This document shows positions 1-53,629 of a stretch of DNA of 64,000 nt, in pieces. The translations under genes were made by a program, and so were the position numbers. Origin of the DNA: Branchiostoma floridae (taxonomy: Eukaryota; Chordata; Leptocardii; Amphioxiformes; Branchiostomatidae). A model generated the notes under the pieces. That model saw only the letters and a list, made by a program, of their open reading frames with translations. It did no database searches and was not told where the DNA came from. The number at the start of each line of letters is the position of its first letter. Within the stretch, counting starts at the first letter, position 1. The stretch covers positions 14,772,484 through 14,836,483 of the forward strand of contig NC_049987.1 in assembly GCF_000003815.2 (NCBI RefSeq). The letters are read 5' to 3'.

Positions 1-545
1 TGAATATGCTGCAACAGTATGGGATCCGTATACAAAGAAAGACAAAGATAAACTGGAAAGGGTACAGACCCAAGCTGCCAGATTCTGTACAAACAACTAC
101 AGCAGAGATGCTAGTGTTACCAAAATGAAAACAGATCTGCAGTGGACATCACTTGAAGACAGGAGGAAAATGTCCAGACTTTGTATGATGTACAAAATGA
201 CCAATAAACTGGTGGACGTACCGACTGATAAGTATCTAACACCAGCTCAAAAACGAACTAGAAACAGTCATGCTTTCAAGTGCCAGAGTTACCAACCTAG
301 GATTGATGTGCTCAAAAATTCCTATTTCCCCAGAACTATTGTAGAGTGGAATATGTTATCACCAAGCACAGTAGGGGCGTCTTCTGCTCGATAGTTTCAG
401 AGAACACTTGCATATAGATGTGCAAAAGTTAGGTGTGATGAGTCGTTCAGTGTAACATAACCAGCTGCTGGCGCGCCGCGTGCCTGCGAAGCTGGTGTGC
501 TACGTCGAAGGGCGGTTATACCGACTATATAGATACAGATACAGA
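1..545 (+). mobile_element. 3' end of a non-LTR (CR1/L2-like) retrotransposon
   Basis: An open frame enters from the left edge at base 2 and ends with a stop at 392-394 (131 codons). It reads like the post-catalytic tail of CR1/L2/Jockey-type reverse transcriptases: EYAATVWDPYTKKDKDKLE, then VQTQAARFCTNNYSRD, and FPRTIVEWNMLSP near the end. Residues 125-394 alone would start at an internal Met, so 125 is not a real start. The 3' UTR runs on to a short tail of tandem atacag units (about 530-545), a common ending for such elements. The catalytic domain lies outside the window. Family assignment is from motif style only. Confidence 0.75.
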
Positions 546-3252
546 AGGTTTGACCAAGGTATGACCAAGGTATGGCCAAGGTATGACCAAGGTATGACCA
601 AGGTATGGCCAATGTATGACCAAGGTATGGCCAAGGTATGACCAAGGTATAGCGAAGGTATGACCAAGGTATGACCAAGGTATGACCAAGGTATAGCCAA
701 GGTATGACCAAGGTATGACCAGGGATGANNNNNNNNNNNNNNNNNNNNNNNNNNNNNNNNNNNNNNNNNNNNNNNNNNNNNNNNNNNNNNNNNNNNNNNN
801 NNNNNNNNNNNNNNNNNNNNNNNNNNNNAGGTATGACCAAGGTATGACCAAAGTATGACCAAGGTATGACCAAGGTATGACCAAAGTATGGCCAAGGTAT
901 GACCAATGTATGACCAAGGTATGACCAAGGTATGGCCAAGGTATGACCAAGGTATGACCAAGGTATGACCAAGGTATGACCAAAGTATTGCCAAGGTATG
1001 ACCAAGGTATGACCAAGGTATGGCCAAGGTATGGCCAAGGTATGGCCAAGGTATGGCCAAGGTATGACCAAGGTATGACCAAGGTATGACCAAGGTATGA
1101 CCAAGGTATGACCAAGTTATGGCCAAGGTATGACCAAAGTATGACCAAGGTATGACCAAGGTATGGCCAAGGTATGACCAAGGTATGGCCAAGGTATGAC
1201 CAAGGTATGACCAAGGTATGACCAAGGTATGACCAAAGTATTGCCAAGGTATGACCAAGGTATGACCAAGGTATGGCCAAGGTATGGCCAAGGTATGGCC
1301 AAGGTATGGCCAAGGTATGACCAAGGTATGACCAAGGTATGACCAAGGTATGACCAAGGTATGGCCAAGGTATGACCAAGGTATGACCAAGGTATGACAA
1401 AGGTATGACCAAGGTATGACCAAGGTATGGCCAAGGTATAACCAAGGTATAACCAAGGTATGACCAAGGTATGACCAAGGTATGAGCAAGGTATGGCCAA
1501 GGTATGGCCAAGGTATGACCAAGGTATGAGCAAGGTATGACCAAGGTATGACCAAGGTATGACCAACGTATGACCAAGGTATGACCAAGGTATGGCCAAG
1601 GTATGGCCAAGGTATGGCCAAGGTATGACCAAGGTATGACCAAGGTATGACCAAGGTATGACCAAGGCATGATCAAGGTATGACCAAGGTTTGACCAAGG
1701 TATGGCTATTAAAGATATGGCTATGACTATGGCTAACAGTGCACAACCCAGTTCTTACGCGACCGGTATGGCCAAGATTTGGCCAAGGTATGACCAAGGT
1801 ATGACCAAGGTATGACCAGGGTATGACCAAGGTATGGCCAAGGTATGACCAAGGTATGACCAAGGTATGGCCAAGGTATGACCAAGGTATGACCAATGTA
1901 TGATTAAGGTATGACCAAGGTATGACCAACGTATGACCAAGGTAAGACCAAGGTATGACTAGGTATGACCCAGGTATGACCCAGGTATGACCAAGGTATG
2001 ACCAAGGTATGGCCAAGGTATGACCAAGGTATGGCCAAGTCATGACCAAGGTATGGCCAAGGTATGGCCAAGGTATGACCAAGGTAAGGCCAAGGTATGA
2101 CAAACGTATGGCCAAGGTATTGCGAAGGTATGACCAAGGTTTGACCAAGGTATGACCAAGGTATGACCTAGGTATGGCCAAGGTATGACCTAGGTATGGC
2201 CAAGGTATGACCAAGGTATGACCAAGGTTTGACCAAGGTATGACCAAGGTATGACCTAGGTATGGCCAAGGTATGACCTAGGTATGGCCAAGGTATGACC
2301 TAGGTATGGCCAAGGTATGACCAAGGTATGACCTAGGTATGGCCAAGGTATGACCTAGGTATGGCCAAGGTATGACCAAGGTATGACCAAGGTTTGACCA
2401 AGGTATGACCAAGGTATGACCAAGCTATGACCAAGGTATGACCAAGGTATGACCAAGGTATGACCAAGGTATGCCCAAGGTATGACCAAGGTATGACCAA
2501 GGTATGACCAAGGTATGGCCCAGGTATGCCCAAGGTATGACCAAGGTTTGCCCAATGTATTGCCAAGGTATGCCCAAGGTATGACCAAGGTATATACAAA
2601 GTATGGCCAAGGTATGACAAAAGTATGACCAAGGTATGTGCCAGGTTAGTACGAGGGATGACCCTGGGATGGCCCACCGTTTGCCAAGCGATGATCAAGG
2701 TATGGACGAGGGGCCAGAGTAGGACCAACGTATGAACAAGGTATGACCAAGGTAGGTATGACCAAGGTATGGCCAAGGTATGACCAAGGTATGACCAAGG
2801 TATGACAAAGGTATGACCAAGGTATGACCAAGGTATGACCAAGGTATGACCAAGGTATGACCAAGGTATGACAAAGGTATCACCAAGGTATGACCAAGGT
2901 ATGACCAAGGTATGACCAAGGTATGACCAAGGTATGACCAAGTTATGGCCAAGGTATGGCCAAGGTATGACCAAGGTATGACCAAGGTATGACCAAGTTG
3001 CATGCATATGACCAAGGTATGACCAAGGTATGACCAAGGTATGACCAAGGTATGACCAAGGTATGACCAAGGTATGACCAAGGTATGGCCAAGGTATGAC
3101 CAAGGTATGACCAAGGTATGGCCAAGGTATGGCCAAGGTATGGCCAAAGTATGACCAAGGTATGACCAAGGTATGACCAAGGTATGGCCAAGGTATGGCC
3201 AAGGTATGGCCAAGGTATGACCAAGGTATGGCCAAGGTATGACGAAGGTATA
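545..3252. repeat. 11-bp minisatellite (ggtatgaccaa)n, about 2.7 kb
   Basis: Near-continuous tandem array of an 11-bp unit, consensus ggtatgaccaa with a frequent ggtatggccaa variant, broken by the N gap at 729-828. Because 3 x 11 = 33, all three minus-strand frames stay open and translate to an 11-residue repeat (LVIPWSYLGHT); these long frames are artefacts of the repeat, not genes. About 2155-2370 shows a 22-bp higher-order form (gacctaggtatggccaaggtat). Non-repeat interruptions occur at about 1706-1764, 2640-2750 and 2997-3010. True length is unknown because of the gap. Confidence 0.97.
729..828. other. assembly gap (100 N)
   Basis: Exactly 100 N inside the 11-bp minisatellite. The round size suggests a placeholder, so the number of repeat copies cannot be read from this sequence. 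Confidence 0.98.
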
Positions 3253-3274
3253 GTACCAATGTTTATATAATGTT

Positions 3275-3520
3275 TGTCACCTTCCTCAACGCAACACTGA
3301 GTTGTTCTATTCCATACTGCAGCTAGGTGTCGCTGCTCGCAAGGTATTGTCATAGCACTTTACGTTTGGAAACGCATTGTTAGAAGCGATACCTAACTGC
3401 AGTGTAGAATTGTACCAGTCAGTATTGCCCTGAGGAAGGTGACAGTCACAAAAACGTTGACTGTGATTGTGCATATTTATTGGTTGTGAATAAAGAAAGT
3501 TGATATCTAGTGATTTTTCA
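3275..3520. repeat. dispersed repeat with inverted ends
   Basis: Starts with gtcaccttcctcaacgc and contains the inverted match ctgaggaaggtgacagtcac at about 3429-3449, followed by a cryptic aataaag tail near 3490. A related copy lies at about 46875-47000 (shared segments gtcaccttcct and aggtgtcgctgct in the same order). The ending resembles 3' ends of Penelope-like or similar retroelements, but no coding part is seen. The flanking 3530-4070 holds nothing recognisable. Confidence 0.5.
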
Positions 3521-24528: not shown

Positions 24529-27500
24529 ATGTCTGCAGAAGGCGAGGACCAACCGCAGGCCATGGAGGAGACCGAGCAGCAGGAGCCCATGGAGACCTCG
24601 CAGAGTGGCGACCAGGGCCTGCCGCAATCCGTACAAGATGCACTAAACAAGATGTATGAAGAAGGTAGGTCTCTTTGGGTATTCAATCTTAAAACAGAGA
24701 AATCTTGAATTTGAAATGATTATTTTCAGTTAACACTGTGCCTCTCTACCACAAAATTATTACACACTCACACACTCACTCCCCGGTTTAACATGATTGC
24801 TTTTGTATGCAAACACAACAGAAATATCCTTTTCTACAATCTTGTCACGAAAATAAACATTAATAGAATCGTTTTTCCTTGCATTTGACATCATCTTTAA
24901 AGTTGCTAAAGGAAATATATGGTACTTTCAAAGTTGACATTACTCCTTGTTTCTGTAATGTAAAACTGCAATATTTCATTGGGGGAAGGCTTAGTTAAAG
25001 AGAACTAGAATTTTGGCTTATCTTTTTTAACATATCATTTTAAAATTCTTTGTAGGTGTTCTTTCACCTGAGGACCTGGACGAGAGAGCGTTGGACGCCC
25101 TGCGCGAGTTCGACGAGTCTGGCGCCCACGACGTCCTGAAACAGTTCGCTGAGAGCGACCTATCACATGTACAGAACAAAAGTGCGTTCCTGTGTGGCGT
25201 CATGAAGACGTACCGACAACGGAACAAGAACAAACAGAACCAACAGGGCGATGCTTCCAAGAAGGGACCTGATGAGACAAAAATCAAAGTAAGATTTTTA
25301 TAAGTCACTTGGCATTTTAGTTGATGCCAATATAGGTGAATATTTGCAGACGTTGATAATTTGTGGTACTGGAAGATTAATAGTAACATCTTTATTCGTT
25401 TCCTAGGAAATCCTGGACAGAACGGGATACAAACTTGATGTGACGACAGGACAGCGCAAGTACGCAATGCCGGTCACAGAGGAAGAAGAGAAAGAAATGA
25501 CAGACAAGCTCACACAGGTATGGAGTCAACGCCATGCGCACGCCATGCACTATGTCTCATCTCATGTCTATTATGTAAAACAGCATAGCTTGGTGTAAGG
25601 AATTGTGTTAATTTGCAGCTTGCCCATGCAGGTTATGCTGTATGGGGATGTAAAATCATGTTTTTTTACAATGAATATGTATTGCATGCATGCTATGAAC
25701 ACAACTTAGCAAAGTTTAGCTGTCTTTGAAATGGCTGTGAATTGGCTACAACATAGAAAGTTTTTGCATTGTTGGTTTAACAATATTACCAATATATCTT
25801 AAGTTGCAGAAGCTTCTTTTACCATCCACAATGTTTTACAATGTTTGCTTTCAGAGATGATATATATATATAGTATAACTAGAAAGTAGATTTCTTTTCT
25901 GTTGCAGAAGCTTGTAGCTTCTAATTGTCTTGCACTTTTGAATCTTGCTACAACAATGCCTTTGTCTTGAGCACTATAACTTGTTGGGAATGAAAGATGG
26001 CCAGTTTTTTTCTTTTGTAACAGCCGCCACTGTTGCTGCGTGATTTGTTGACTTGCATTGAGTAGAATGTGCCTGCTTCTTATGTACAGAAGTAGCTGTA
26101 GTAACTAGTGTTCTGAAAATACACACGTAGCACTACTATCCTGTAGACCACTTGGTACAGATAAACAGGAAAAACCGTAAAGGGAAACTTCTGACTTTCT
26201 GTTCAAGTAGTATCGGGTTATCACTGTGTCTTGTGTTCGGCAATCAACTTTGGAAAATGTTTCAAAAACTATTCCATGTAATTGATTAGTTAATACTGTG
26301 CTAATGTCTGATGTACAGGGCTCAAAATTAGATGAGAGAATTCTGTTGGTTTGTTATATTCCACTACAGTCAAAATTTACATGATTTTAGGGCTTGATTT
26401 GGCACCGTTAGAAATGAAATTTTGCTAGTGAAGCTGCTGTTGATGATGATATAAATTATTTGAGCCCTGTGATTGTGTAATCCAACTTTCTTTCCTGACA
26501 TTGTGAAAGATTCTTTTGGCACTTTCAATCTTCTGTGCTATCAGATCTTGCACCAAATTCACACCAAAAAATGGAAAAAGGAAGACAAGGTCGAATGGAA
26601 AGTTGGTGGTTGATACAATAATGTTCTTGGAGAGCAAAGTTTTACAACGTTGCTTTCTCCCGTTTCAGCAAGGACATACCTCCCAGAGTAGCATGGCAAG
26701 TCCAACTTTTCTTCCTGGCTGCTCGTTCCATGTTCAGAATTCCTGACAATTTCAAACTGACAATTTACTGACTTTTTTGGATGGGAGGTTAAGCTCAGTG
26801 AGAGCCAGATGGGCCAGGCTAATGTTGTTTGGGCAATTCTTTGAAGCAAGAAAAAAGAGGGGGAAAAGGCGTATTGTATGGGATACGACAAAATTGTTTC
26901 TTTGAAACATTGGCAAAATGGTCAAAAGAAATGCATCACCACGACTTGCATTGGGCTGGCCCTGGTACGGTTGTGGTCTGGCTGGTCTTACACTGATGTG
27001 CTCTTTATACAGGTGTTTGTTGGTAAGATTCCGAGGGACATGTATGAAGATGAGCTCATACCACTGTTTGAGAAATGTGGAACCATCTTTGACCTCAGGT
27101 AGGTCTCCCTCTCGTGTCTTGTATTTAAGCCTCCCTGCTTGGTTTTATTGTTGGCACAGGTGTTTGTCAGTAAGATACCGAGAGACATGTTTGAAGATGA
27201 GCTCATTCCTCTGTTTGAGAAGCCCGGACCCATCTTTGACCTCAGGTATGTCCCAAGAACTTGTGAGTTGTCTTATCATATCTTGTCTACCTTCTCGAGT
27301 AACCTCCTTTAATATGGCTGCCAGTGCTCTTCAAACTTAACTAAAAAGACTATCTACTAACTTATTTTTTAAAACTTAAGTTCTAGAATCTATAAGATTG
27401 TTGGTCTAAAATTTTTACGTAAGCAAGATAGCTGCACTTTGAAGTTCCCCTTATAAAATCTCTTATAAACATTCTCTGAACTGAAGAGTGGTTTGCCTTT

Positions 27501-30500
27501 TTGCTGTGACTATTTACTTCCCTGTTCTTACCAAAACTTTTTTTAAAGAAAACAAGCAAATATACTTCTGTGTGCAGCTAGGCATTGTAAATGAATGTAA
27601 AACATAAAATGTAAGCCGAGTTAGCACAAAGACGAAATTACCCCTCCCCACATTGTAGGCTGATGATGGACCCACTCAGCGGACAGAACAGAGGCTATGC
27701 TTTCGTCACGTATACCACTAAGGAATCTGCACAGGATGCTGTCAAACAGGTGAGGTTATCGTGGAATGGTTGTATAATTCGTATGTAAACTTAGAAGACA
27801 GCAAGATAGCTTTTTGAAATCATTTTGCATAGTCATAGTTCTATTTATTGTTGCCCCAGCATTTTGAACTGAAAGACATCTGTAGCATTCTAGTACTAGT
27901 AGTAGTTAAGCATATTTGTGTTAGGCACAATTATTCATCAATTGAAAGGCAAGGTCTTTTAAACTTAGATACATGTACCAATTGTTTTACTTGTTCATCT
28001 CTTCAGCTTGACAACTATGAGATCAGAAAGGGACGCTGGCTGGGTGTGTGCATCTCAGTGGCCAACAACCGGTTGTTCGTCGGCTCTATCCCCAAGAACA
28101 AGAGCAAGCAGGAGATCTTCGACGAGTTTGGCAAAGTCACAAGTGAGTTTCTCTTTGTCTTAGATATGGTTTAGGTAGAAAGGAAGTGTGTTATTGCCTC
28201 TTAAACCGTAGGTTAGGTAGTTGAGAAGTGTGCCATCATCTCTAAACCTCTGGTTTGCGCCAGGTATAGTGAGATAACAGATTAAAGATGGTTGCAGCTA
28301 TTTTGTCAAGTACTGTGACTAACTCGCATAATAGCTTGGTGGCCCTTTTTTCGTTGTACTTCTCGACAAGTTTTTCTGTAGCATAATTTCAATCACAAAA
28401 CACCCTGAAAACTTCCTTTTGCTCTTACTGCAGGATAGAATGAGAAAAAAAAAGAAATGAATTTACAGTATGGTCTGAAATAATTTGTTGTTATTTATCC
28501 ATAGACGGGCTTAAGGATGTGATCATCTACTACATGCCTGAGGACAAGAGAAAGAACCGAGGCTTTGCCTTCCTGGAGTACCTGTCACACAAGGAGGCGT
28601 CGCTGGCCAGGCGAAGGCTCATGAGCGGGCGCATCAAGGTCTGGGGCAACATCACAGTCACGGTCGACTGGGCCGACCCCATCGAAGAGCCAGACGATGA
28701 GGTCATGTCGAAGGTCAGTGGACGGAAAAGGGTCAACCACTGAACCCAGGGGGTGATCGTTGTGTATTTGAGAAAGAACACAGCATTGTTTTACCTTAGA
28801 GTTAAAAGTATATTTTGGCCCTCATAGTTCTTTCATTGAGCTGGTCTGTAGAAAACATGGTAGATAAAATGGAGGATGGTTGGGGTGTGTTGCTGTGTTA
28901 TTTCTCATGTCCCTTGGACTTCTTTTAGGATATGAGCCATTCTAGATTTGCTGTCAACTTCAGAATTCAAAGGGGAATTCAAAGGGGAATTCAAGAGTGG
29001 ACTGATTTTAATAGCTGAAGTTCAAGCATTTTAAATCATGTTCACTCAGCTTCCTTGTTGCAGTCATTGAAGTTGACAGTAGATCACCGTGACTGATATT
29101 GCTGGTGAAGTCAAAGGGATTCTCACAAGATCATTCACTGGAACTATCTGAACTGGAAAATGCTGTTTGATGTGTTCTTTGCATCCAAAAGCTGCCCATT
29201 GTTTTGCTAAACAGAGGAACGGTTCTGTCCATGTGTGCGTGCATGTGTGTGTTGGTGTGTGTGTGTGTTTCTCTGTCACTGTCATTTCACTTGAAATGTT
29301 TCAATGGTTTTCAGCAATGGAAACAAGTAACACCCCCTATCCAGGAATTCAGGTAAACTGGATCGGGACTGGCCGCGGCCCTTCCCTGTCCGCTGGCCCT
29401 CCTCTTGGTTGACCCCCCCCTACTGTGCCACCCCCATGGGCGCCTCCGTGACCCTCCGCGCGCGCTGCCTCCCCCCTCATAGCAAAGGGCATACATAGTT
29501 CAGAGGTCATAGATGGGTAGCAGTGTGAGAAAAAACACTTTTCTCTGGGCAGTTGTTAACAGTCCTTCTGCCTCCTGCCCAACAGGTTAAGGTGCTGTAT
29601 GTGAGGAACCTTGCTGTTGAAGCTGCCGAGGAGATCATCCAAGCAAAGTTTGAGCCGTACGGGACAGTAGAGAGAGTCAAAAAGATCAAGGACTACGCCT
29701 TCGTCCACTTTGAGAACAGAGAAGATGCCATCAAGGTTGGTATTGCTGTACTGTAATGTATTGGTGTTACTTCAATATCTCTGATGTTGTATCCAAAGGA
29801 GTGCATTGTCTTGTCATTGTCATTTTATTGATGCACATTTCTGTCTGACAGGCCATGGAAGATCTGAATGGCAAGGAGCTGGAAGGGTCTGCCATGGAAA
29901 TCTCACTCGCCAAGCCACCATCGGAGAAGAAGAAAGAGAGGAAGAGGCAGAGAGAGCAGGAAAAGATGATGGGCGGGTAAGCTACAAGCGGTATTTGTCT
30001 TAAGCTCCTTTGTTACGTTTAAATCATCATCTTCTGATACTATTTTAAGATTATGGCCCATTGAATAGAACAAGATCGGTTTCCAGTAAAGAAATAGATA
30101 TTTCTGGAAAAGATATTTGTATCATTGCTTATCGAAGCCAAGCATCAGCAATGTTTATATAAGCCATTATTTGATAACTATGCGATAACAGATGTTTGAT
30201 TAGGTCTGCAGAAAGAAGGATCATTATAAGTGGCAGTTTGTGAAATGAGAGGAAAAATCAGCGCACGCAGCGTTTAATGTACCCTTGTGTTTTTCAGCTA
30301 TGACTACGATGGGTTTGGTGGTGGCCGCGGAGGCCCCATGCGTGGTCGAGGCCGTGGTGGTTTCGATCGCCGCGGTCGAGACTACGGGGGAGACTATGGC
30401 TACGGTGGCGGCTATGACGACTACGGCTATGGGGGATACGCCGAGGACTACCGTGGAGGCTACGATGACCCTTACTACAATGACCCCTACTACGGTGGCG

Positions 30501-30949
30501 GTTACGACCGTTACGATGACTATGGCTATGGTGGTGGTTATGGTGGCCGCGGCGGCCGTGGCCGCGGTGGTCCGATGGGCCCTCCCCGCGGGGGCATGGG
30601 ACCCCGCGGTGCTCCTCGGGGCCGTGCTGGCTTCTCGCCACGAGGCGGGGCCGCCCGGGGAGGCCGCGGCGGCCGAGGGGGGACGCAGCAGCGCGGTAGA
30701 GGGGGTCGCGGGGGCGGCCGTGGGGGTGGCACTAGGGGGGGCGCCAAGAGGAAGGCTGACGGGCAGGGAAATCAGGGGCCCGACACGAAGCGCCGTGCCA
30801 ACAACCAAGGAGGAGGCCAGTGGCAGTCTGCTCCCATTGCTCAGCAGCCTCTCGCCAGCCAGGACTGGGGCGGCCAGGGCTACAGCGGCGGATCTTCCAG
30901 CGGTGGTCAGGAATGGTACCAGGACTCCTACGGCCAGCAGTGGAAATAG
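24529..30949 (+). CDS. SYNCRIP/HNRNPR-like: hnRNP Q/R (SYNCRIP-like) RNA-binding protein, complete
   Basis: Acts in pre-mRNA splicing, mRNA transport and stability; binds RNA with three RRMs. Coding exons: 24529-24664, 25056-25288, 25407-25517, 27013-27098 (or 27160-27245), 27659-27749, 28007-28142, 28505-28713, 29586-29735, 29852-29976, 30298-30949; 1929 bases, 642 aa, close to human Q (623) and R (633). The N-terminal acidic domain contains [20 protein letters not shown], then [17 protein letters not shown]1 has [10 protein letters not shown] and [12 protein letters not shown]2 has [12 protein letters not shown] and [12 protein letters not shown]3 has [10 protein letters not shown] and DYAFVHF. 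A basic [13 protein letters not shown] linker follows, then an RGG/YGG-rich tail with a KRKADG nuclear signal and the end SYGQQWK. One ancestral gene of the vertebrate Q and R pair is expected in an invertebrate chordate. Start chosen by family fit and frame. Confidence 0.95.
27013..27245 (+). CDS. tandemly duplicated RRM1 exon pair (27013-27098; 27160-27245)
   Basis: Two 86-bp exons, same phase, each with acceptor and donor. The first encodes [20 protein letters not shown] then KCGTIFDLR; the second [20 protein letters not shown] then KPGPIFDLR. Both start with the RNP2 strand of RRM1 and join in frame to the exons at 25407-25517 and 27659-27749. Using both would shift the frame (172 bases), so only one can be used per mRNA. 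They are separated by just 61 bases (27099-27159), short enough that direct splicing between them may be hindered. The second exon is closer to vertebrate hnRNP R/Q at KPGPI (KAGPI) but has Ser for Gly in RNP2. Confidence 0.9.
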
Positions 30950-39660: not shown

Positions 39661-42600
39661 ATGTGGGCAGCGGTCTTCTTTGTCTTTGCCTTCGGGGCAG
39701 GTAAGAAACTTATTCTAAGAGTCTTCAAAGTGACTTTTACAAGCTTTTCTTAATTTTCTACATTTATGTTAGTTAGCTGGGATAAAGTTAAAGATGGCAG
39801 ACGGTACAAGTTTGTACAAATGCAAGGTGATAAACGAAACGTCAGAATTTTATCACAATCGTGTTACCATTTTTGGAGCAAATAATGAGAGAATGAAGAA
39901 AAGACCAAAACGAACGACAGAAATTCATAACTACAAAAAGAGTTAAAGAAGGACATCCGATTTTGGATTGGCACTACTTACGAGGAATACAAATGTGTAA
40001 AATTCTTTAGATGCATTGCATACAAAACAACTTAAAAACTTGCAAGGAGATGAATGAAATATTTTCATAATATTCTGTATAGAATTTTAGGAAAGTTTCA
40101 ACGGAATCCTTTTTCCCCATAAATTTCTCACGGTCATGACAAAATAAAGACAAGACTATGAACCACAGTAGAATACGCCGAGGTTGAAAGATACCTCTCC
40201 AAAATCTATTTGTTTTGTTTGTTTGTTTTTAGACTTGGCCTATTTTGGCTGCCCCTTTTTTGAGATGAGTTTTGACTATTCAACATCCGCACCATGATAT
40301 GATGATATTATATTATATGATACGACAAAACAAACGAAGAAACCGCTCCAACTCTCTCGTGACGTAGGTTTCATCCGGCAGGTCTTCCATACTGAGCCGC
40401 AATGTTTGATCATGTCAGCGCCCACATGACTATGCAACTGCCAACAGACAGATTTTTGGCAAGAAGTTGTAAGGACCCTGATGATATGAGCTTGCCATAC
40501 ATGAAGACTATTTTCTCTTAGATTTAGACTTCTGTTTCATTTTTTGTTTACCAACAACGGCCCGATGAAAAAAAGAAGGTGTTTGTGTTTGTTATTCTTA
40601 TTCTTGTTTTACCCTTTCTTTTAGATATTACTTTTGTCGAAAATGTATTTGGAGCTTATCAATAATCATGTCTTAATGAGTTCTTTATCGATCGGTTGTT
40701 CAGCTGTTTTTGCCTGTACGTTTCTCACAGTCCGGATCAAGCAAGGACACCACAGGCAATTATTTTCAAATCACCGATATGACGCACATGATTAATTTCT
40801 AAATGTTTACCCTAAAATTTGCGAAAAGGGACGATCCTATTGTTCATTGGGCAAAAGTGTGAAGAATTTGGAAAGTAAGAAACAGTTTCTCTTCTTAAGG
40901 AATCATTCTGGAAAATCTTAAAGGAAAGAGATTCGACTTTTGGCATCTTCAAGATTTTAGGACCCAAATCTGACTAGTCCGTAGGGGGTTAGGAATGGAC
41001 TTGGGGTTACTTGAGAAACATACATAACTGATGCAAAAGCAACCTTACGGTCGTATCCGTAGTCTAATGACGTCAGGCAGACTTTGCCTTAGATCACGCG
41101 ACATGCAATCATTTAATGACGTAATCGTTTCCATGACGACGCAGTTTCCGACGGAAACCCGTTGTCGGGTTACCAGAACGACCCGGCTTTTCCCGAGGAG
41201 GTTCAGCGGATCATCGGCGGCAGCGCTGCGTCCCTCGGCAACTTCCCCTGGCAGGCTCGGCTGGACGGTAAGGATGTAGTCACATGTACCAATAAGTCGG
41301 CTCACGATGCAAAGTTCACATGCGCGAGGTCAAAGGTGACGACCCCTAACTTGTACCACGGTAAACAGTTTCTCAAGACCATGCTTGATACGTGCCCAAC
41401 GTGCTATGTCTCAGGAGTCTACAACTTTGACGTATTAGGCATAATGCATAGATATTGCACTGTGCAGGCGCAGTTCGAACCGTGACCCAGCTTTTAAGAT
41501 ATAGAATACCAAGCAGATGTTGTAGGAGGAGGAGGGGACGATTCCGACCGGAAAGATGTACACAATTAATTCCCTCAAAACACACCTCCAACATTTGCTC
41601 AGAGTCGTTTATAAGGATGCGTGAGACTTGAAGGCATTGAGCTAGCTTGGACTCATGCAAATGTAGGTAGGGCTTATTAGAACTATTGATAACTTCTTTT
41701 AGGGGCATGCAACAAGACAGGAGCACGCCAGCACCCTGGCAAAACGTTGTCAAAAAGCGAGAAATCTTGAAACTGCGACTAAAGGTACAATGCACCACAA
41801 TTCACGACACAATGTATCGTTAACAATGTATCGTAACCACTCTCACAAGTTTACTTAAAAACTGTATTTTCCATTAATGTTGATTTCCGTTGATTGACAG
41901 GTCCCCTGCTGTGTGGAGGGACTCTGGTCCATCCGTCCTACGTGGTGACGGCTGCTCACTGCTTCTTCTATAATGGGTCGGTTCATACCACAGTGTTTTT
42001 GCGCATATGTATACGTATGTATGTGTGTATATGTGTGTGTATGGTGTGTGCGTGTCTATGTATATTTGAGTTATGGCAAAGCAAGGACGCCGATATAGGT
42101 GTCAATTTTTGTTTGAATCTCTAAAAATAATTATCGCAGCGATTGCAATGCAAACTTCAAATAACACAGAGGGCATAGCTCTAACAACACGGCCAAACAC
42201 ATACATGTATCCTCTGTGTCTCCTTGGTCACACAGACTATCTTGAGAGAAAGTGGCTATCCAAATGCGCCTCCTAGTGTTTTGGAAAAGGACTGCAACCT
42301 TGTTCTTGATCCATGTAACAGACTTGTCCTTGGTGCTGAACACACTTCACAGTACACAGTCAAACACTGTTCCACGCCGAAGATTTGATCTGTGTTTATG
42401 TTTATCGATGACAGGCAGGACTATACGAACCCAGGTCACTGGACGATCAGGCTTGGTGAGATCTACCCGAACTCTCAAGAGAACACGGAACAGGCCATCA
42501 ACGCGGCCAGCGTCACCGTTCACTCCGGCTACAACCAGTGGGCCACCCCTGACTACGACATAGGTACGGACATACACCCTTATCATCCATTACAGGTTTG

Positions 42601-44400
42601 CGATACAGATTGTTTTCGTCGGTGTCCATGGGCGCCGCCATCTTGGATTTTGACGTCATGAGCATCACCGTTCATTCTGACTACAACCAGTGGGCCACCC
42701 CTGACTATGACATAGACTCTTACCATTAATTACAGATTTGCGATAGAATAACATATATTGTTTTCGTCAGCGTAAATGGGCGCCGCCATCTTGGATTTTG
42801 GATTTTTCGGTTGTATTTTCATTTTCCATCGTGGGAATTACTTTCGGTCTTCACCAGGTCTATGAATCTTAACCAACCTTCACTCTTCAAAGGTCATTCG
42901 TTGAGCTGCATTGCCGCATTGGTCTAGCGTTAGTTCATATGAATGTGAATGGTGCTTTATCTTTTTCCGTTACCCATCCCAGCTGTCATCCGTCTCCGCC
43001 ATGCCGCTTCTATCAACAACTACGTCAGCCCCCTCAGTCTGCCCACGTACGACGCTCCGGACGGCACCAATTGTGTGGTCAGTGGGTTCGGAGACACCAC
43101 TGGTCAGTTCCTCTTTTTTAAGTGATATTTTATTGTTTTTCACGATAGAGTAAGACTATGTTAGCACATTGACGTGCACAATACATGTATCTAAATTTAC
43201 AAAAAAAAGTCACGGGTAGAGTAAGGCTGTTTATGTGTGTTTGTCACACAAATGACAAAATTTCGGCACTTTTGTTTGGCGATTCACTCACATGTATATC
43301 GTGGCGTCGTGTTGGATGAACGGCTAGGGTGTTAGGTCCAGAACCCAGAGATCCTGGGTTCGCCTGCTCTGATGTCGCATCGATGTCGTGCCCTTGGTAA
43401 AGGCACTAAACACGACTTTCTCCACTCCACCCAGGGGTAAAAACGGGTACCTGACTTCGGTTTGGGAGGTAAAATACGATGGAAGGAGAGAGCTGGACTC
43501 CGTCTTCCAATACACCATAGTCACAGTAGATCGCCCAATGCCCATACGGCCTCAAAAAGACAATGGGACTACCTTTCCTTCACATAAGCAGCTCTGGTAC
43601 TCGATATTCGAATGTACGTCTATCACAAACTGGGTATCAAAAGTGTGAAGGGACATTAATAGAAATTGATGAATTTTTTTTTGTGATTTGACAGGAAACG
43701 GAAACCTCGCAAGCCGGCTGATGTACGTGTACGTGCCCGTTATGAACAGGAACACCTGTAACTACTACATGAACGGGGCCATCACCAGCCGTATGTTCTG
43801 TGCTGGTTACGACAGCGGTGGCAGGGATAGCTGTCAGGTACCGTCCATCTACCACAAATTACATATGTTACATGTATTTGAGTCCTATTATGAAAAACGC
43901 TGCAAGTACAGATTTTCCTCATCATAGATTAAGTCACCGTGTGCAAAACAAAAACGCCCTTGCAAATCCAGAGCAGGTTGCTAGGGGGCCCCCAAGCATA
44001 CATCACTTTTCCTCACATCACAAACTACTAGTATCTGCCACCAAATAAAATCACCAGAGCACAGCCAGGTCAAAAGATACAAAAACGGAAGTTCTGCTGT
44101 AGTATCAAGGTCGCATACTAGGGGCTGTCTTACACCTTCCCATATACCAATATCAACGTAGTCCATCTTGAGCATACACCAAACCTATATTTCCATTTTA
44201 TTTGGAGATCATAACCGTTACTATTTCATCTGCAGGGTGACAGCGGAGGCCCGTTGGCTTGCCAGTTGGGCGGGACCTGGACCCTGTCGGGCGTGGTGAG
44301 CTGGGGCAACGGCTGCGCTCTGGCCGGCAACCCAGGCATCTACACCCGGGTCACCCAGTTCAGAAGCTGGCTGTCACAGAATACGGGCTATGCTATATAA
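39661..44400 (+). CDS. secreted trypsin-like serine protease (S1A), complete
   Basis: Seven exons: 39661-39700, 41145-41267, 41901-41976, 42415-42563, 42983-43102, 43695-43837, 44236-44400; 816 bases, 271 aa. [14 protein letters not shown] is a signal peptide, followed by a pro-segment, the activation site RIIGG (cleavage after Arg) and NFPWQARL. Catalytic triad: His in VVTAAHCF, Asp in TPDYDIAVIRL, Ser in GDSGGP. The S1 pocket residue before SCQGDSGG is Asp (GRDSCQ), which predicts cleavage after Arg/Lys, and SWGNGCA supports trypsin-like specificity. The end [13 protein letters not shown] is the usual C-terminal helix. It resembles chymotrypsin-like elastase/trypsin genes of invertebrate deuterostomes, for digestion or secreted proteolysis. 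Introns hold a SINE and other repeats; a dead partial exon copy follows exon 4. Confidence 0.93.
42509..42801 (+). pseudogene. tandem duplication of protease exon-4 end plus intron
   Basis: Unit 1 (42509-42653: last 55 bases of exon 4 plus adjoining intron) is repeated at 42661-42801. The copy still encodes [17 protein letters not shown], but the donor is lost (gacatagactc for gacatag|gtac), so it is a dead exon. The intron part gcgccgccatcttggatttt is shared. Confidence 0.85.
43318..43520 (+). mobile_element. tRNA-derived SINE in a protease intron
   Basis: gtgttaggtccagaacccag and gatcctgggttcgcctgctc look like tRNA-related A/B-box regions, followed by cccttggtaaaggcactaaa and a cacccaggggtaaaaacggg block. 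No coding capacity. Confidence 0.5.
43960..44215 (+). repeat. dispersed repeat, 'gctgcagtaccaagg' family
   Basis: Member of the 10940-11175 family (gaagttctgctgtagtatca) in the last protease intron. Confidence 0.55.
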
Positions 44401-45714: not shown

Positions 45715-48638
45715 ATGGTAAGTACTCATCATCAGGACAATTTGCTTTTCCCATATTCCCAGATAGCTATATATATAGAGCAAGAAGTCCTTGCAGTAGA
45801 CATTGGAAGGATGTAATGAACCTAATGCCACTAGCCAAGTACACTATATTTCAACAAGGGGGCGTCGTTACACAATGAGATTACTGGTAATATGTGGCCT
45901 CTCCTCTCAGTAAACAACAGTGCCTTCGGTTCACTTACAATAGCAACAAATGCCCTGCTCATAAAGCATAGACACAGTCTTGACTAGGCTGTTGGAATCT
46001 TAAGGGATCTGTGTCGGTTATTTGAACCACGTATTGTCGCTAAGTAAAGTTTCATGCAAACAGGTAACAGCGTTAAGGACTTCTAGGGTCAGAGTCCGAT
46101 CCCTGACCCCTTGCAAACTATTGAAACAGAAGGGACTCGTTTCTTTATTTCTATATGTCGTATGAATGAGAACCCCATTTGTATCATTGATGACAGACAT
46201 CAATAACACATTTGTAGTAAATTATGGAAACTATGATCTGTGAGTATATCGTTGAATACGAAACACTTGTGACCCGCCTCTCTCACAAATGAGCCAAATT
46301 CAGAAATATAGTTCTCACTCAATTTCTGCTGTGGATGTTATTACCTTCATGAAAAATGGAGGTATAGCAGGTATGTAATAAGTATGGGGTCGCGGAACTC
46401 TATATCTGGTTCTGATGCGGTCTTGCTTCTGTTTTAGGACGAAGATCTGCTATCCCGGATGACTGTGAGAGAGGCGACTCACGACGACTACCAGGCCGTT
46501 ATGAACATGGCGTCTCCGGACACCTTTCGGGACGGTTTTGACTACCTGCCGGCCAAGTTTCACGGTTTTGTGGACGATCCCGATACGGTGTTTCTCCTGG
46601 TGGAGGTCGATGGGGAAGTGGTAAGATGTGCACAGAAAAGAATTTGCGGAGTCGAAGGATAAGAAAGGTGGCAGGAATAAGTGGAATAAAAATCTGCACG
46701 AAGGTGTAAACGTAGAAAATTTGCCAGTTTGAAGTTAGATTGATCTTGTCTTCGATACGAAAATTTAATCATATGGCCCACCAAAGAACTTACGAATATG
46801 GTCATTTTTTTGACGGATAACAAATTTCTTTGTACACAACCAAGTGTTTTATTCAAGACAATCGTTTCACTGACCGCCTGTCACCTTCCTTCCTCAGGTT
46901 TAAGGAAATTCTAATTTGTTCTGTTACGCACTGCATGTAGGTGTCGCTGCTAACATATGCGGTCCCAACCGTAAAGTATTTATCTATATACATAGTAAGG
47001 TAGTTCGGTCTTGAATAGAACGATTGGTTGTGTACGAAGAACTTTGTTCTCCTTTGACTTACCAACTTGATGAAACCGTTAACGGAATTATTTCTAGAAT
47101 GTGAATAACTAAATGTAATGTCGAGCGGGAATTTCTTGACTAATATTGATATCCAGCAGGAACTTCTATCCATTGTTTTCCCCTCCTAGGTCTTCATCGA
47201 TGTGGAGTGTTTGCAGGAAAGCGGGAAAACAATTTATGGTAAAACCATACGCGTGGCTAAACGATTGCAAGGCAGGGGATTCTATAAGGCATTCGTGGAC
47301 GCCACTGTACGTCGCGCTGCGGAAAAAGTTATTGCAAAGTCAGGTCGACCACCGAAACATCTATATGTACTAAGAAACACAGAGGTGAAAGGTCCAGGCA
47401 ACTTCAGGATGAAATCTGTGATTGTAAGTATGGAATGGCCTGTTTTGTTATTATTAGCACAATTCCACGCTGTTATGTCAGTGATTACTGGGCTATTTTG
47501 GGTTCGAGTGGGCGCCCGGTTAATTTTGATTCGGACCCGTACCCGTCCCCAGCGAAAAAAATGATCCAATCCGTAACCTAATCTTGGAACCTAATCTTGG
47601 TCCCGTCCTGAAGAAAAAAAGCCCGTAAACTGTCTACTAGTATTGTTTTTTTGTAAATGCATCTAATTTCGCGGGGATTTAATTTCGCGGTAGCGGGAAA
47701 AGAGACTTTTCGCGGTGGTTTTAAGTTCGCCGTAGCACCATGCACTGTAGTCCCTTACTGCCATGGAAAAATGTTCGCGGTGGTTTTAAATTCGCGGCGA
47801 AGCGGCCACTGCGAAAACCGCGAACATTCAACCACCGCGAAAGTTTATGCATTTACAGTATCCGGCGGAGTATCAGCTTTCCGTCTAGACGTGGGCGGGT
47901 CATAACGATTTCAGAGCCCGGTCTGGGTATGGACTGTGTTTATGTGTTTTTATTTAGTTCATCGCCTTAATAAACAGAGAAGATAGAAATACGACCGGCT
48001 TAATCTGAAATCACATTCCATCTGGAGTATTGACGTCAGCAATTTTTACTTTGTCTCTCTAGAACATCATGTACTTTTGCTGGGACGCAACCCCCATGAA
48101 GGACCGGCTGACTGACGCCCAGATGTCCCTACCGGCCCTCGTACCCTACCGGCCTACCGAGACCCACCGCCTGCTGCCGCCGGCCTTCTCGGCTGCGGTA
48201 CTGTCTGAGGGCACCGTATTTGTCGACTGGGTTCCGTACAAACTTTCTGAATCCAACATGAAGAAGTTAGTAGAAGCGAGCTGCTACATCCTTGTCGACT
48301 CGAATGTACCGACCGCCAAGAGTCTTAGTTTCGGCGGGAGTTACATGACTCCCCGGGGCCGGGTGTATCACATAGATATACACTGTAAGGACGAGGCTTT
48401 ATGTAAGGCTCACATCACAAACCACGTGAAGAACGCCTGTAGTCAGTATACAGGCATGATAACCTTCTGTGTCATGGTGATTGACAAGGGGTTAAAGGAT
48501 GTAGTGATGGAGTTTTGCGTCCAGTATTTGCATTTCAGACACCTTCCACATGACCATGCATATTTCCATGCCTACCTTGATCTGGAAACTTACTGGAATT
48601 CCAAGATGACAAAACCTGTCTCTAAGTCCAAATACTGA
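45715..48638 (+). CDS. NAT16-like: NAT16-like GNAT N-acetyltransferase, gene A
   Basis: Exons 45715-45717 (ATG only), 46438-46620, 47190-47423, 48063-48638; 331 aa. The start codon is the last codon of the first exon (agaaATG|gtaagt); exon 2 then reads DEDLLSRMTVREATHDDYQA in frame. An internal Met (46459) is the alternative start. Resembles vertebrate NAT16 / fish histidine N-acetyltransferase: FDYLPAKFHGFVDDPDTVFL, then LSEGTVFVDWVPYKLSESNM and CYILVDSN match the family's GTIIQDW-YRPSESN-type blocks. The GNAT acetyl-CoA loop (R/Q-x-x-G-x-G/A) is RLQGRG in exon 3. By family, it would acetylate the alpha-amino group of histidine or related amino acids; the substrate here is unknown. The gene is duplicated downstream as gene B. 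Confidence 0.85.
46870..47010. repeat. dispersed repeat in intron 2 of gene A
   Basis: Shares gtcaccttcct and aggtgtcgctgct with 3275-3345. Absent from the corresponding intron of gene B, so it inserted after duplication. Confidence 0.5.
47655..47862. mobile_element. MITE, 'ttcgcggtggtttta' family (copy 1)
   Basis: Ends gtaaatgcat and atgcatttac form inverted repeats; the interior is a series of ttcgcggtggttttaa-like blocks in both orientations. An inverted copy is at 61794-62008. In intron 3 of gene A. Confidence 0.75.
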
Positions 48639-50910: not shown

Positions 50911-53629
50911 ATAGGCCTTGGAAAAATGACACTCTCTGTCGCTAAATACACAATATTTCAAACAGGGGTGTGTCATTACAAAATACTGTTACGTGACCCC
51001 TTCTGTCCGTAAACAGTAGTGCCGTTGGTCCACTTGCGACTGCAGTATAGTGTTGTCTAATCATGCCTTGGGCTGTTGAAATCTTTAGACATGGTACTAG
51101 TAATACATTTTCAGGCTTTATTCAACAAAATACAAAGTACATTACAAATCACACCAGTGTAATAGAAACATTTCTTACAAGCGTGACAGGACATTTCTGT
51201 GCTGTTTCCTAACGTCACTTAGATATAGAAAGCAATCAACTTTAAAAGATTTGTAGATGTCACCAGTCACCCTTACTTTGGTTTCTGCACCAGTTTTTGA
51301 ATATGACATATTTTGCTATAGTAATCAATAAATTAATTGTAACATAGGTATCGGATACTTTGAATGGATAATCTGTTTTATGACCTAGTATGATGGTTTT
51401 GAGATCTATTATGACATTACATTTAAAATAATTGTGTACTAACTTACAAATTTTGTACCAGAAAAATTTCAAGCCGTTACACTTTGGTACTAGTAATACA
51501 TTGCAAAGTTGATGAGAAATGATAATTGTTAACGAAAGTACATGTGGTCGCGGAACTCTAGATCTGGTTCTGAAGCTGTCTTGCTGCTGTTTTAGGACGA
51601 AGATCTGCTATCCCGGATGACTGTGAGAGAGGCGACTCACGACGACTACCAGGCCGTTATGAACATGGCGTCTCCGGACACCTTTCGGGACGGTTTTGAC
51701 TACCTGCCGGCCAAGTTTCACGGTTTTGTGGACGATCCCGATACGGTGTTTCTCCTGGTGGAGGTCGATGGGGAAGTGGTAAGATTTTGTGGAGATTAAA
51801 GATAAGAACGTTGAACTTTGTTCCGAAAGTTGACGTGAAAAAGTGAGAGGAAAGTCTGCATTAACTTGTGCACTAACAACCTAGCAAATAACGTGAAGTG
51901 TCCCAGTTATGTCTCACTAAAATCTAATAATAGGTCCTGATAAGAAACCAACGAATGGGGGGAAATCATTTTCAATGTATGAATCATTAAACGTAGGCTT
52001 TGATATTGAACGGGAAAAAGTATACTATTGTTTTTCCTTAGGTCTTCCTCGATGTGGAGGTTTTGCAGGATGGCAGGGAAAGATGTATTTGTAAAACCTT
52101 CCGCACGGCTACAAAATTGCAAGGCAGGAGACTGTCAAAAATATTCGCGACAGCCACGCGAACTCGTGCTTTTGCAAAAAGTATTGAAATGTCGGGGAGA
52201 CCGCCCAAAATGCTATATGCACTGAGAGGCACTGAGCGACAAGACCTCGAACGTCTGGACAGCGACTTGCCCTTCAGGACCAAATCCGTGATTGTAAGTA
52301 TTATATGATCTGTTTAGCACAATCCCACACTGTTATACCCCAGTCAGTGTGTCACGGTGGCCAGGTAGTGAGTCAGGGATCAGGACAGAGGCATGATGTC
52401 TGAGGAGATGATAGACTTTATTACAGGATCTTTCAGTGCTCTGGGCGGACAATCTGGACACGTCTTTCCCCTGCCACGTCTCTAGGTCGAATACCCTTCC
52501 CCTCCTACGTGTCACTCACCCCAACCCCTCTACATCTGCTCTCCATTACTCCCCACTCCAGGGGTTATCCGTGACGCTGTCGCCTCGTGACAAGTGTATA
52601 GCACAACCCCACTCTGTTATACCCTAGTCAGAGACTACTGTGTTTTTGGGCTCGGGTGGGCCCCGGTTGATTTGATTCGGACTTAAAATCAGCTCCGACC
52701 CCAGCGAAAAAAGCCCGATTCAAACCGTCATCTAATCTCGAAAACATTTATGATTCTTGGTCCCGTCAGAAAGTAAACACAAAAAGCCCGTTGTCTGAGG
52801 AGGGGCGGCCCCTAGTATCCGGAGGGGTGTCGGTTTGAAACTTCTCATGTAGCATGACTAGAATCCGGAGTGATCATGATTTTAGAGCCTGTCCCGGGTA
52901 TGGACAGTACAGTGTTTGTTTGTTTGTTGGTTGTTTGTTTATTCATTTCGTTGACCGCTTCAGGAAACAGAGAAGATTCGAAATGGCCTAATCTGAAATC
53001 ACATTCCATCTGGAGTATTGACGTCAGCAATTTCCACTTTGTCTGTCTAGAACATGATGTACTTTTGCTGGGACGTAACCCCCATGAAGGACCGGCTGAC
53101 TGACGCGCAGAAGTCCCTCCCGGCCCTCGTACCCTACCAGCCTACCGACATCCACCGCCTGCTGCCGCCGGCCTTCTCGGCTGCGGTACTGTCTGAGGGT
53201 ACCGTATTTGTCGACTGGGATCCGCACAAACTTTCTGAACCCAACATGAAGAAGTTAGTAGAAGCGGGCTGCTACATCCTTGTCGACTCGAATGTACCGG
53301 CCGCCAAGAGTCTTAGTTTCGGCGGGAGTTACATGACTCCCCGGGGCAGGGTGTATCACATAGACATACACTGTAAGGACGAGGGTTTATGTAAGGCTCA
53401 CATCATAAACCACGTGAAGAACGCCTGTAGCCAGTATACAGGCATGATAACCTTCTGTGTCATGGTGATTGACAAGGGGTTAAAGGATGTAGTGATGGAG
53501 TTTTGCGTCCAGTATCTGTATTTCAAACACCTTCCACATGACCATACGTATTTTTGTAAGGACCTTGATATTGTAGAAGCTTTCCGAACTTCCATAATGG
53601 CAAAACCTGTCCCTAAGTCCAAATACTGA
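50156..53629 (+). CDS. NAT16-like: NAT16-like GNAT N-acetyltransferase, gene B
   Basis: Exons: ATG at 50156-50158 (or 49906-49908), then 51596-51778, 52042-52293, 53051-53629; 338 aa. Same plan as gene A. Exon 2 is identical to gene A over all 183 bases, including the first bases of the donor. Exon 4 is very similar until its last 35 codons (YLYFKHLPHDHTYFCKD versus YLHFRHLPHDHAYFHAY). Exon 3 is only about half identical: the acetyl-CoA loop RLQGRG of gene A is KLQGRR here, changing both the first basic residue and the small residue. Conserved islands SGRPPK, LY.L and KSVI frame it. The protein may have altered cofactor use or be on the way to loss, but the frame is intact. Intron 3 holds an insertion (52350-52590). 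Confidence 0.82.
50583..50745. mobile_element. MITE, 'gactgtatatagtgtataataaa' family (copy 2)
   Basis: Ends ctagcttgggtaccatccgg and cggatgctaag form imperfect inverted repeats; inside are two tandem agcgactgtatatagtgtat blocks. It interrupts promoter unit 4 of gene B: the sequence on both sides joins up when compared with unit 3. Confidence 0.7.
52315..52630. mobile_element. insertion flanked by direct repeats in intron 3 of gene B
   Basis: tagcacaatcccacactgtt (52315) and tagcacaaccccactctgtt (about 52597) are near-identical 33-base direct repeats. Between them about 250 bp starts gtgtcacggtggcc and ends gtcgcctcgtgaca, imperfect inverted ends. Gene A has a single copy of the flanking segment and no insertion. 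Confidence 0.55.

Follow-up and report, generated by a model that had tools for sequence, protein, structure and literature searches.

Does the amphioxus hnRNP Q/R gene (SYNCRIP/HNRNPR) hold two interchangeable versions of part of its first RRM, and does splicing choose between them? The question is raised by two neighbouring and closely similar exons, here called 4A and 4B, which we found in a 64-kb stretch of Branchiostoma floridae DNA (the window). We consider it likely that 4A and 4B are tandem duplicate exons that are spliced mutually exclusively within a single hnRNP Q/R gene, a usage that we infer from features of the DNA.

The hnRNP Q/R gene and its exon pair

The gene is complete within the window and has 10 coding exons per isoform (Table 1). 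Profile searches with the first 426 aa of its product returned TIGR01648 hnRNP-R-Q at 507 bits (cutoff 318), PF18360 hnRNP_Q_AcD at 100 bits and three stretches matching RRM_1. By-eye reading showed that the last exon (30298-30949) encodes an RGG-rich C-terminus, as in mammalian members. The acidic domain, the three RRMs and the family profile place the product in the hnRNP Q/R family. A 38-nt stretch (29315-29352) in the intron separating the exons for RRM2 and RRM3 follows an acceptor-like TTTTCAG and is closed by a donor-like CAG/GTAAAC. Its inclusion would bring a stop at codon 353, and it is a candidate poison exon, or chance.

Table 1. The hnRNP Q/R gene and the features in and around its exon pair, in window positions
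Feature	Position	Strand	Description
hnRNP Q/R (SYNCRIP/HNRNPR) gene, coding ATG to stop	24529..30949	+	Spliced frame uninterrupted; 642 aa
Exon 3, 5' partner of the pair	25407..25517	+	Donor CAG/GTATGG
Exon 4A	27013..27098	+	86 nt; encodes RRM1 from strand 1 (RNP2) through helix 1 to the beginning of strand 2
Spacer intron	27099..27159	+	61 nt; 66% pyrimidine
Exon 4B	27160..27245	+	86 nt; putative alternative to 4A
Exon 5, 3' partner of the pair	27659..27749	+	Holds RNP1

The two exons have two of the properties by which mutually exclusive tandem exons are recognised, since they are adjacent, homologous and equal in length and phase (86/86 nt), and their double inclusion breaks the frame. Both run from phase 0 to phase 2, beginning after ...KLTQ and ending in AG/G, an Arg codon, with the last residue of each split with exon 5. 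The CDS with 4A alone or with 4B alone is 1929 nt, encoding 642 aa and a stop. When neither exon is included the first stop is at codon 181, and when both are included it is at codon 219. Both stops fall in exon 5, several junctions upstream of the last exon, a position from which nonsense-mediated decay would be expected. An earlier note on this DNA had described two 86-bp exons of the same phase at a spacing of 61 bases; its coordinates, lengths and peptides were all reproduced here, and the codon-219 stop bears out its statement that inclusion of both exons shifts the frame.

In the mechanism that we propose, exon 3 would be joined either to 4A or to 4B, and whichever of them is chosen would then be joined to exon 5. 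From either one, RRM1 would receive its strand 1 (RNP2) and helix 1. Use of both exons, or of neither, would break the frame early, and the resulting mRNA would presumably be destroyed by nonsense-mediated decay.

Splice sites, spacer and RNA signals

The acceptor and donor of 4A scored 8.6 and 10.2, and those of 4B scored 7.9 and 9.8, all comparable to the sites of the other exons in the gene. On consensus splice-site matrices, the donors of 4A and 4B exceed 99.6% and 99.5%, respectively, of the 3999 GT sites in the window, and the corresponding acceptors exceed 98.0% and 97.5% of its 3806 AG sites.

The spacer contains two candidate branch adenines, pattern matches only, at 27128 and 27147, at distances of 30 and 49 nt, respectively, from the donor of 4A. 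Introns near 60 nt in length are spliced routinely in some animals, and any steric exclusion between 4A and 4B would depend on the shortest intron that amphioxus can splice. For exons 4a and 4b of OGDH, the relevant passages of a published study treat a distance of less than about 50 nt between 5' splice site and branch point as a steric threshold (PMC7969005). Because both candidate adenines lie within this distance, 4A is probably joined to 4B inefficiently; steric hindrance would probably disfavour this junction, as a 61-nt spacer would put any branch point of 4B too close to the donor of 4A. As far as those passages describe it, the OGDH pair is like the amphioxus pair in consisting of tandem duplicates with a short spacer and a branch point near the 5' splice site, the amphioxus branch points being pattern matches. 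However, OGDH is a different gene, its branch points have been mapped, and its spacer measures 118-131 nt in birds and mammals as compared with 61 nt in amphioxus (PMC7969005).

As regards competing intronic base pairing of the Dscam type, the folding of the spacer region (27080-27180) was unremarkable (z -0.54, with 57 of 200 shuffles folding equally well). Four inverted pairs are present in 25518-27658, none of which touches the spacer, and one of them (27 nt, 70% complementary) brackets both 4A and 4B. TGCATG does not occur in the spacer or within 300 nt on either side of the pair; two occurrences, at 25683 and 25687, are more than 1.3 kb upstream. The spacer contains two candidate matches to CU-type motifs, and no regulator motif stands out around 4A/4B.

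Similarity and copy number

Exons 4A and 4B are identical at 74 of 86 bases (86%; 12 differences), and the next best ungapped 86-mer to 4A on the + strand of the 64-kb window has 41 matching bases. Their local-alignment score of 62 was attained in none of 200 shuffles, which had a mean of 7.9, and chance resemblance is excluded. The adjoining introns of the two exons, compared with the splice consensus bases omitted, did not resemble each other more than shuffled sequences do (P 0.67 and 0.84), which argues against a recent assembly duplication. If the duplication carried intron along with the exon, then the neutral sequence has diverged past recognition whereas the exons have not.

No third exon copy was seen in the window; in a tblastn search with exon A, the best match after A and B was the gene's own RRM2 (E 0.046). 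A DNA search of the assembly (513,431,437 bases in 431 contigs) with the 233-base pair gave one match, the locus itself. The protein search of the same genome, in which 35 candidates were scored, returned 14 matches with E no greater than 0.001, comprising seven exons of the hnRNP Q/R gene, two paralogues (L002 and L003) and five weaker matches (E 1.8e-10 to 2.7e-4). Among these 14 matches in the assembly, a second hnRNP Q/R gene was not recognised. Two scans of IMG/VR, one with a 250-aa piece of the protein and one with an alignment of four sequences, and one scan of GTDB yielded no confirmed relative; as these collections are viral and prokaryotic, the result has no bearing on conservation among animals.

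Selection and age of the two copies

The codon changes between 4A and 4B comprise six synonymous and four nonsynonymous ones, corresponding to a dN of 0.079 and a dS of 0.58 (NG86), the latter with a bootstrap range of 0.18-1.46. In the 989 usable codon bootstraps of 1000 run, dN equalled or exceeded dS in 0.3%. A model in which one copy is frozen and all changes are free in the other is rejected (P 0.0027). When half of the changes are assigned to a constrained copy and half to a free one, four or fewer nonsynonymous codons with no stop arise at P 0.49, and the counts alone therefore leave room for one relaxed copy. The four changes of 4B include one hit among 16 positions that are invariant in five relatives, an avoidance no better than chance (P 0.22). 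Taken by themselves, the substitution counts are no proof that both copies are constrained; the intron comparison is the better argument, provided that intron sequence was part of the duplication.

Position 26 is Phe in both A and B, Trp in HNRNPR and fly Syp, and Tyr in L002 and L003. The shared Phe26, a single site, points to a duplication within the amphioxus lineage, or to later homogenisation, and suggests that the pair may be a lineage-specific duplication. As many as three of the four changes (S4, F11 and P22) seem to have arisen on the B branch. In a search against solved structures, A and B scored 128.4 and 126.8 bits with HNRNPR, and 114.1 and 102.7 bits with Syp.

Alternative explanations

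One of the copies, most likely 4B, might be an unused or relaxed duplicate that leaves 4A effectively constitutive, a reading that we regard as unlikely. It would fit with the greater closeness of 4A to human HNRNPR (9ejy) and fly Syp isoform K (6es4), from each of which A has five residue differences as compared with six and eight, respectively, for B. Position 4 also fits, being Gly in A, HNRNPR, Syp, L002 and L003 and Ser in B only, among the six sequences compared, as does the drop in RRM_1 score for the protein from 144.7 bits with A to 140 bits with B, and the half-and-half model above is compatible with the counts. Nevertheless, 4B is open, in the correct phase and equipped with good splice sites, and it is still 86% identical to 4A although the surrounding introns are without similarity; furthermore, its F11 and P24 are present in relatives.

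Amphioxus genomes are highly polymorphic, and this would favour an assembly artefact in which two alleles, or a misjoined repeat, have been placed head to tail. We consider such an error extremely improbable, given that 12 of the 86 exon bases differ, that the flanks are unrelated, that the assembly holds a single DNA match and that splice boundaries are precise on both copies. The pair could also serve mainly as an off switch, with double inclusion or skipping yielding a decay-prone mRNA through which the protein controls its own level. Autoregulation of this kind is frequent among splicing factors, and both wrong products do end prematurely (codons 181 and 219); but a single poison exon would suffice, and the presence of two open and near-equal versions would argue for use in protein. 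A principal role as an off switch is very unlikely. Mutually exclusive splicing of 4A and 4B, as proposed for RRM1 in the earlier note, is partly supported, by the frame logic, the splice sites, the retention of the exons beside diverged introns, the single copy found and the 61-nt spacer, with the qualification that one relaxed copy is still compatible with the substitution counts.

Amino-acid changes in RRM1

Four amino-acid differences distinguish 4B from 4A, namely G4S, Y11F, C22P and T24P, the last two amounting to KCGT/KPGP. Under the standard RRM topology, which we take to apply here, G4S is the fourth position of RNP2 and faces the RNA, Y11F lies just ahead of helix 1, and C22P and T24P lie in the turn between helix 1 and strand 2; the predicted isoforms would differ at these places. 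The RNP2 aromatic F2 and exon 5 (RNP1) are common to both. The suggestion of the earlier note that the changes touch the RNA-binding strand therefore holds for G4S and fails for the other three. With just one of the four differences located on the strand that faces RNA, altered RNA preference between the isoforms is possible rather than indicated.

In the parts of the report on the fly Syncrip crystal structure that deal with RRM1, its RNA-binding surface is described as aligned with that of the N-terminal domain, and the RRM1 core as also contacting this N-terminal RNA-binding domain (PMC5827114). On account of this contact, domain coupling is another candidate target of the swap, and by analogy with the fly protein it is possible that exchange of 4A for 4B alters it.

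Precedents and significance

We found no published description of the amphioxus 4A/4B pair in the literature on mutually exclusive or duplicated exons, Syncrip, HNRNPR and Branchiostoma, the scope being titles, abstract starts and some passages. Human hnRNP Q1/Q2/Q3 and R1/R2 are like the amphioxus pair in being splice isoforms of the same gene family. However, according to the isoform description in part of one paper, these alter the RRM2-RRM3 region, the C-terminus or the AcD-RRM1 linker, and not strand 1 or helix 1 of RRM1 (PMC6125337). This agrees with the earlier note, which was not aware of such a pair in vertebrate SYNCRIP or HNRNPR. The note's statement stands for vertebrates, within that description, but a precedent in the fly was overlooked, since an 'alternative RRM1' is mentioned for the Drosophila isoform Syp-PC in a passage of a paper from 2014 (PMC4163661). 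Given this mention, an alternative RRM1 is not new in the hnRNP Q/R family. Syp-PC, as mentioned there, is like the amphioxus pair in that a choice between isoforms, within the same gene family, exchanges one version of this domain for another. Position 26 is Trp in fly isoform K (PDB 6es4) and Phe in both A and B, which argues for a separate origin of the fly and amphioxus alternatives.

If both isoforms are made, one gene would give two versions of the first RRM, and these would constitute a natural four-residue swap for probing the part of RRM1 in target choice. Splicing in a one-gene chordate would then do what gene duplication may do in vertebrates. Position 11 of SYNCRIP is presumably Phe, as in 4B. 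In HNRNPR the same position is Tyr, as in 4A (PDB 9ejy). We may speculate, with little confidence, that amphioxus splices within one gene between two types of RRM1 that vertebrates have put in two genes (HNRNPR and SYNCRIP) and that, with separate origins of the fly and amphioxus alternatives, there has been repeated selection for two RRM1 states.

Paralogues and other features

The two hnRNP Q/R-related paralogues, L002 and L003, lie about 10 kb apart on contig C7, and each has RRM1-3 in one uninterrupted frame. They appear to be of the A1CF/RBM46/RBM47/DND1 type, a name based on their RRMs and, in L002, on a hit to a DND1-type dsRBD. We considered whether they might be retrocopies of the hnRNP Q/R gene, and this was ruled out by their translations, which are those of separate paralogues, and by the DND1-type dsRBD hit in L002. 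At position 11 one of the two has Tyr and the other has Phe, which repeats the difference between 4A and 4B. Just downstream of the A1CF/RBM47-like paralogue, at 3025-3714 of L003, there is a tandem repeat reading YKVHSNCVFQPV.

Elsewhere in the window, a long tandem array on the - strand (397-3276) has frames that read as YLGHTLVIPWS repeats and extends across a 100-N gap (729-828); it is probably a satellite-like repeat. On the + strand, several exon-like frames in 41120-44400 resemble by eye a trypsin-type serine protease (IIGG...NFPWQA, AAHC, GDSGGPL). Two very similar open frames of about 190 aa, also on the + strand (48063-48638 and 53051-53629), both contain LPALVPY and VYHIDIHCKDE, and judged by this resemblance they are a local duplicate.
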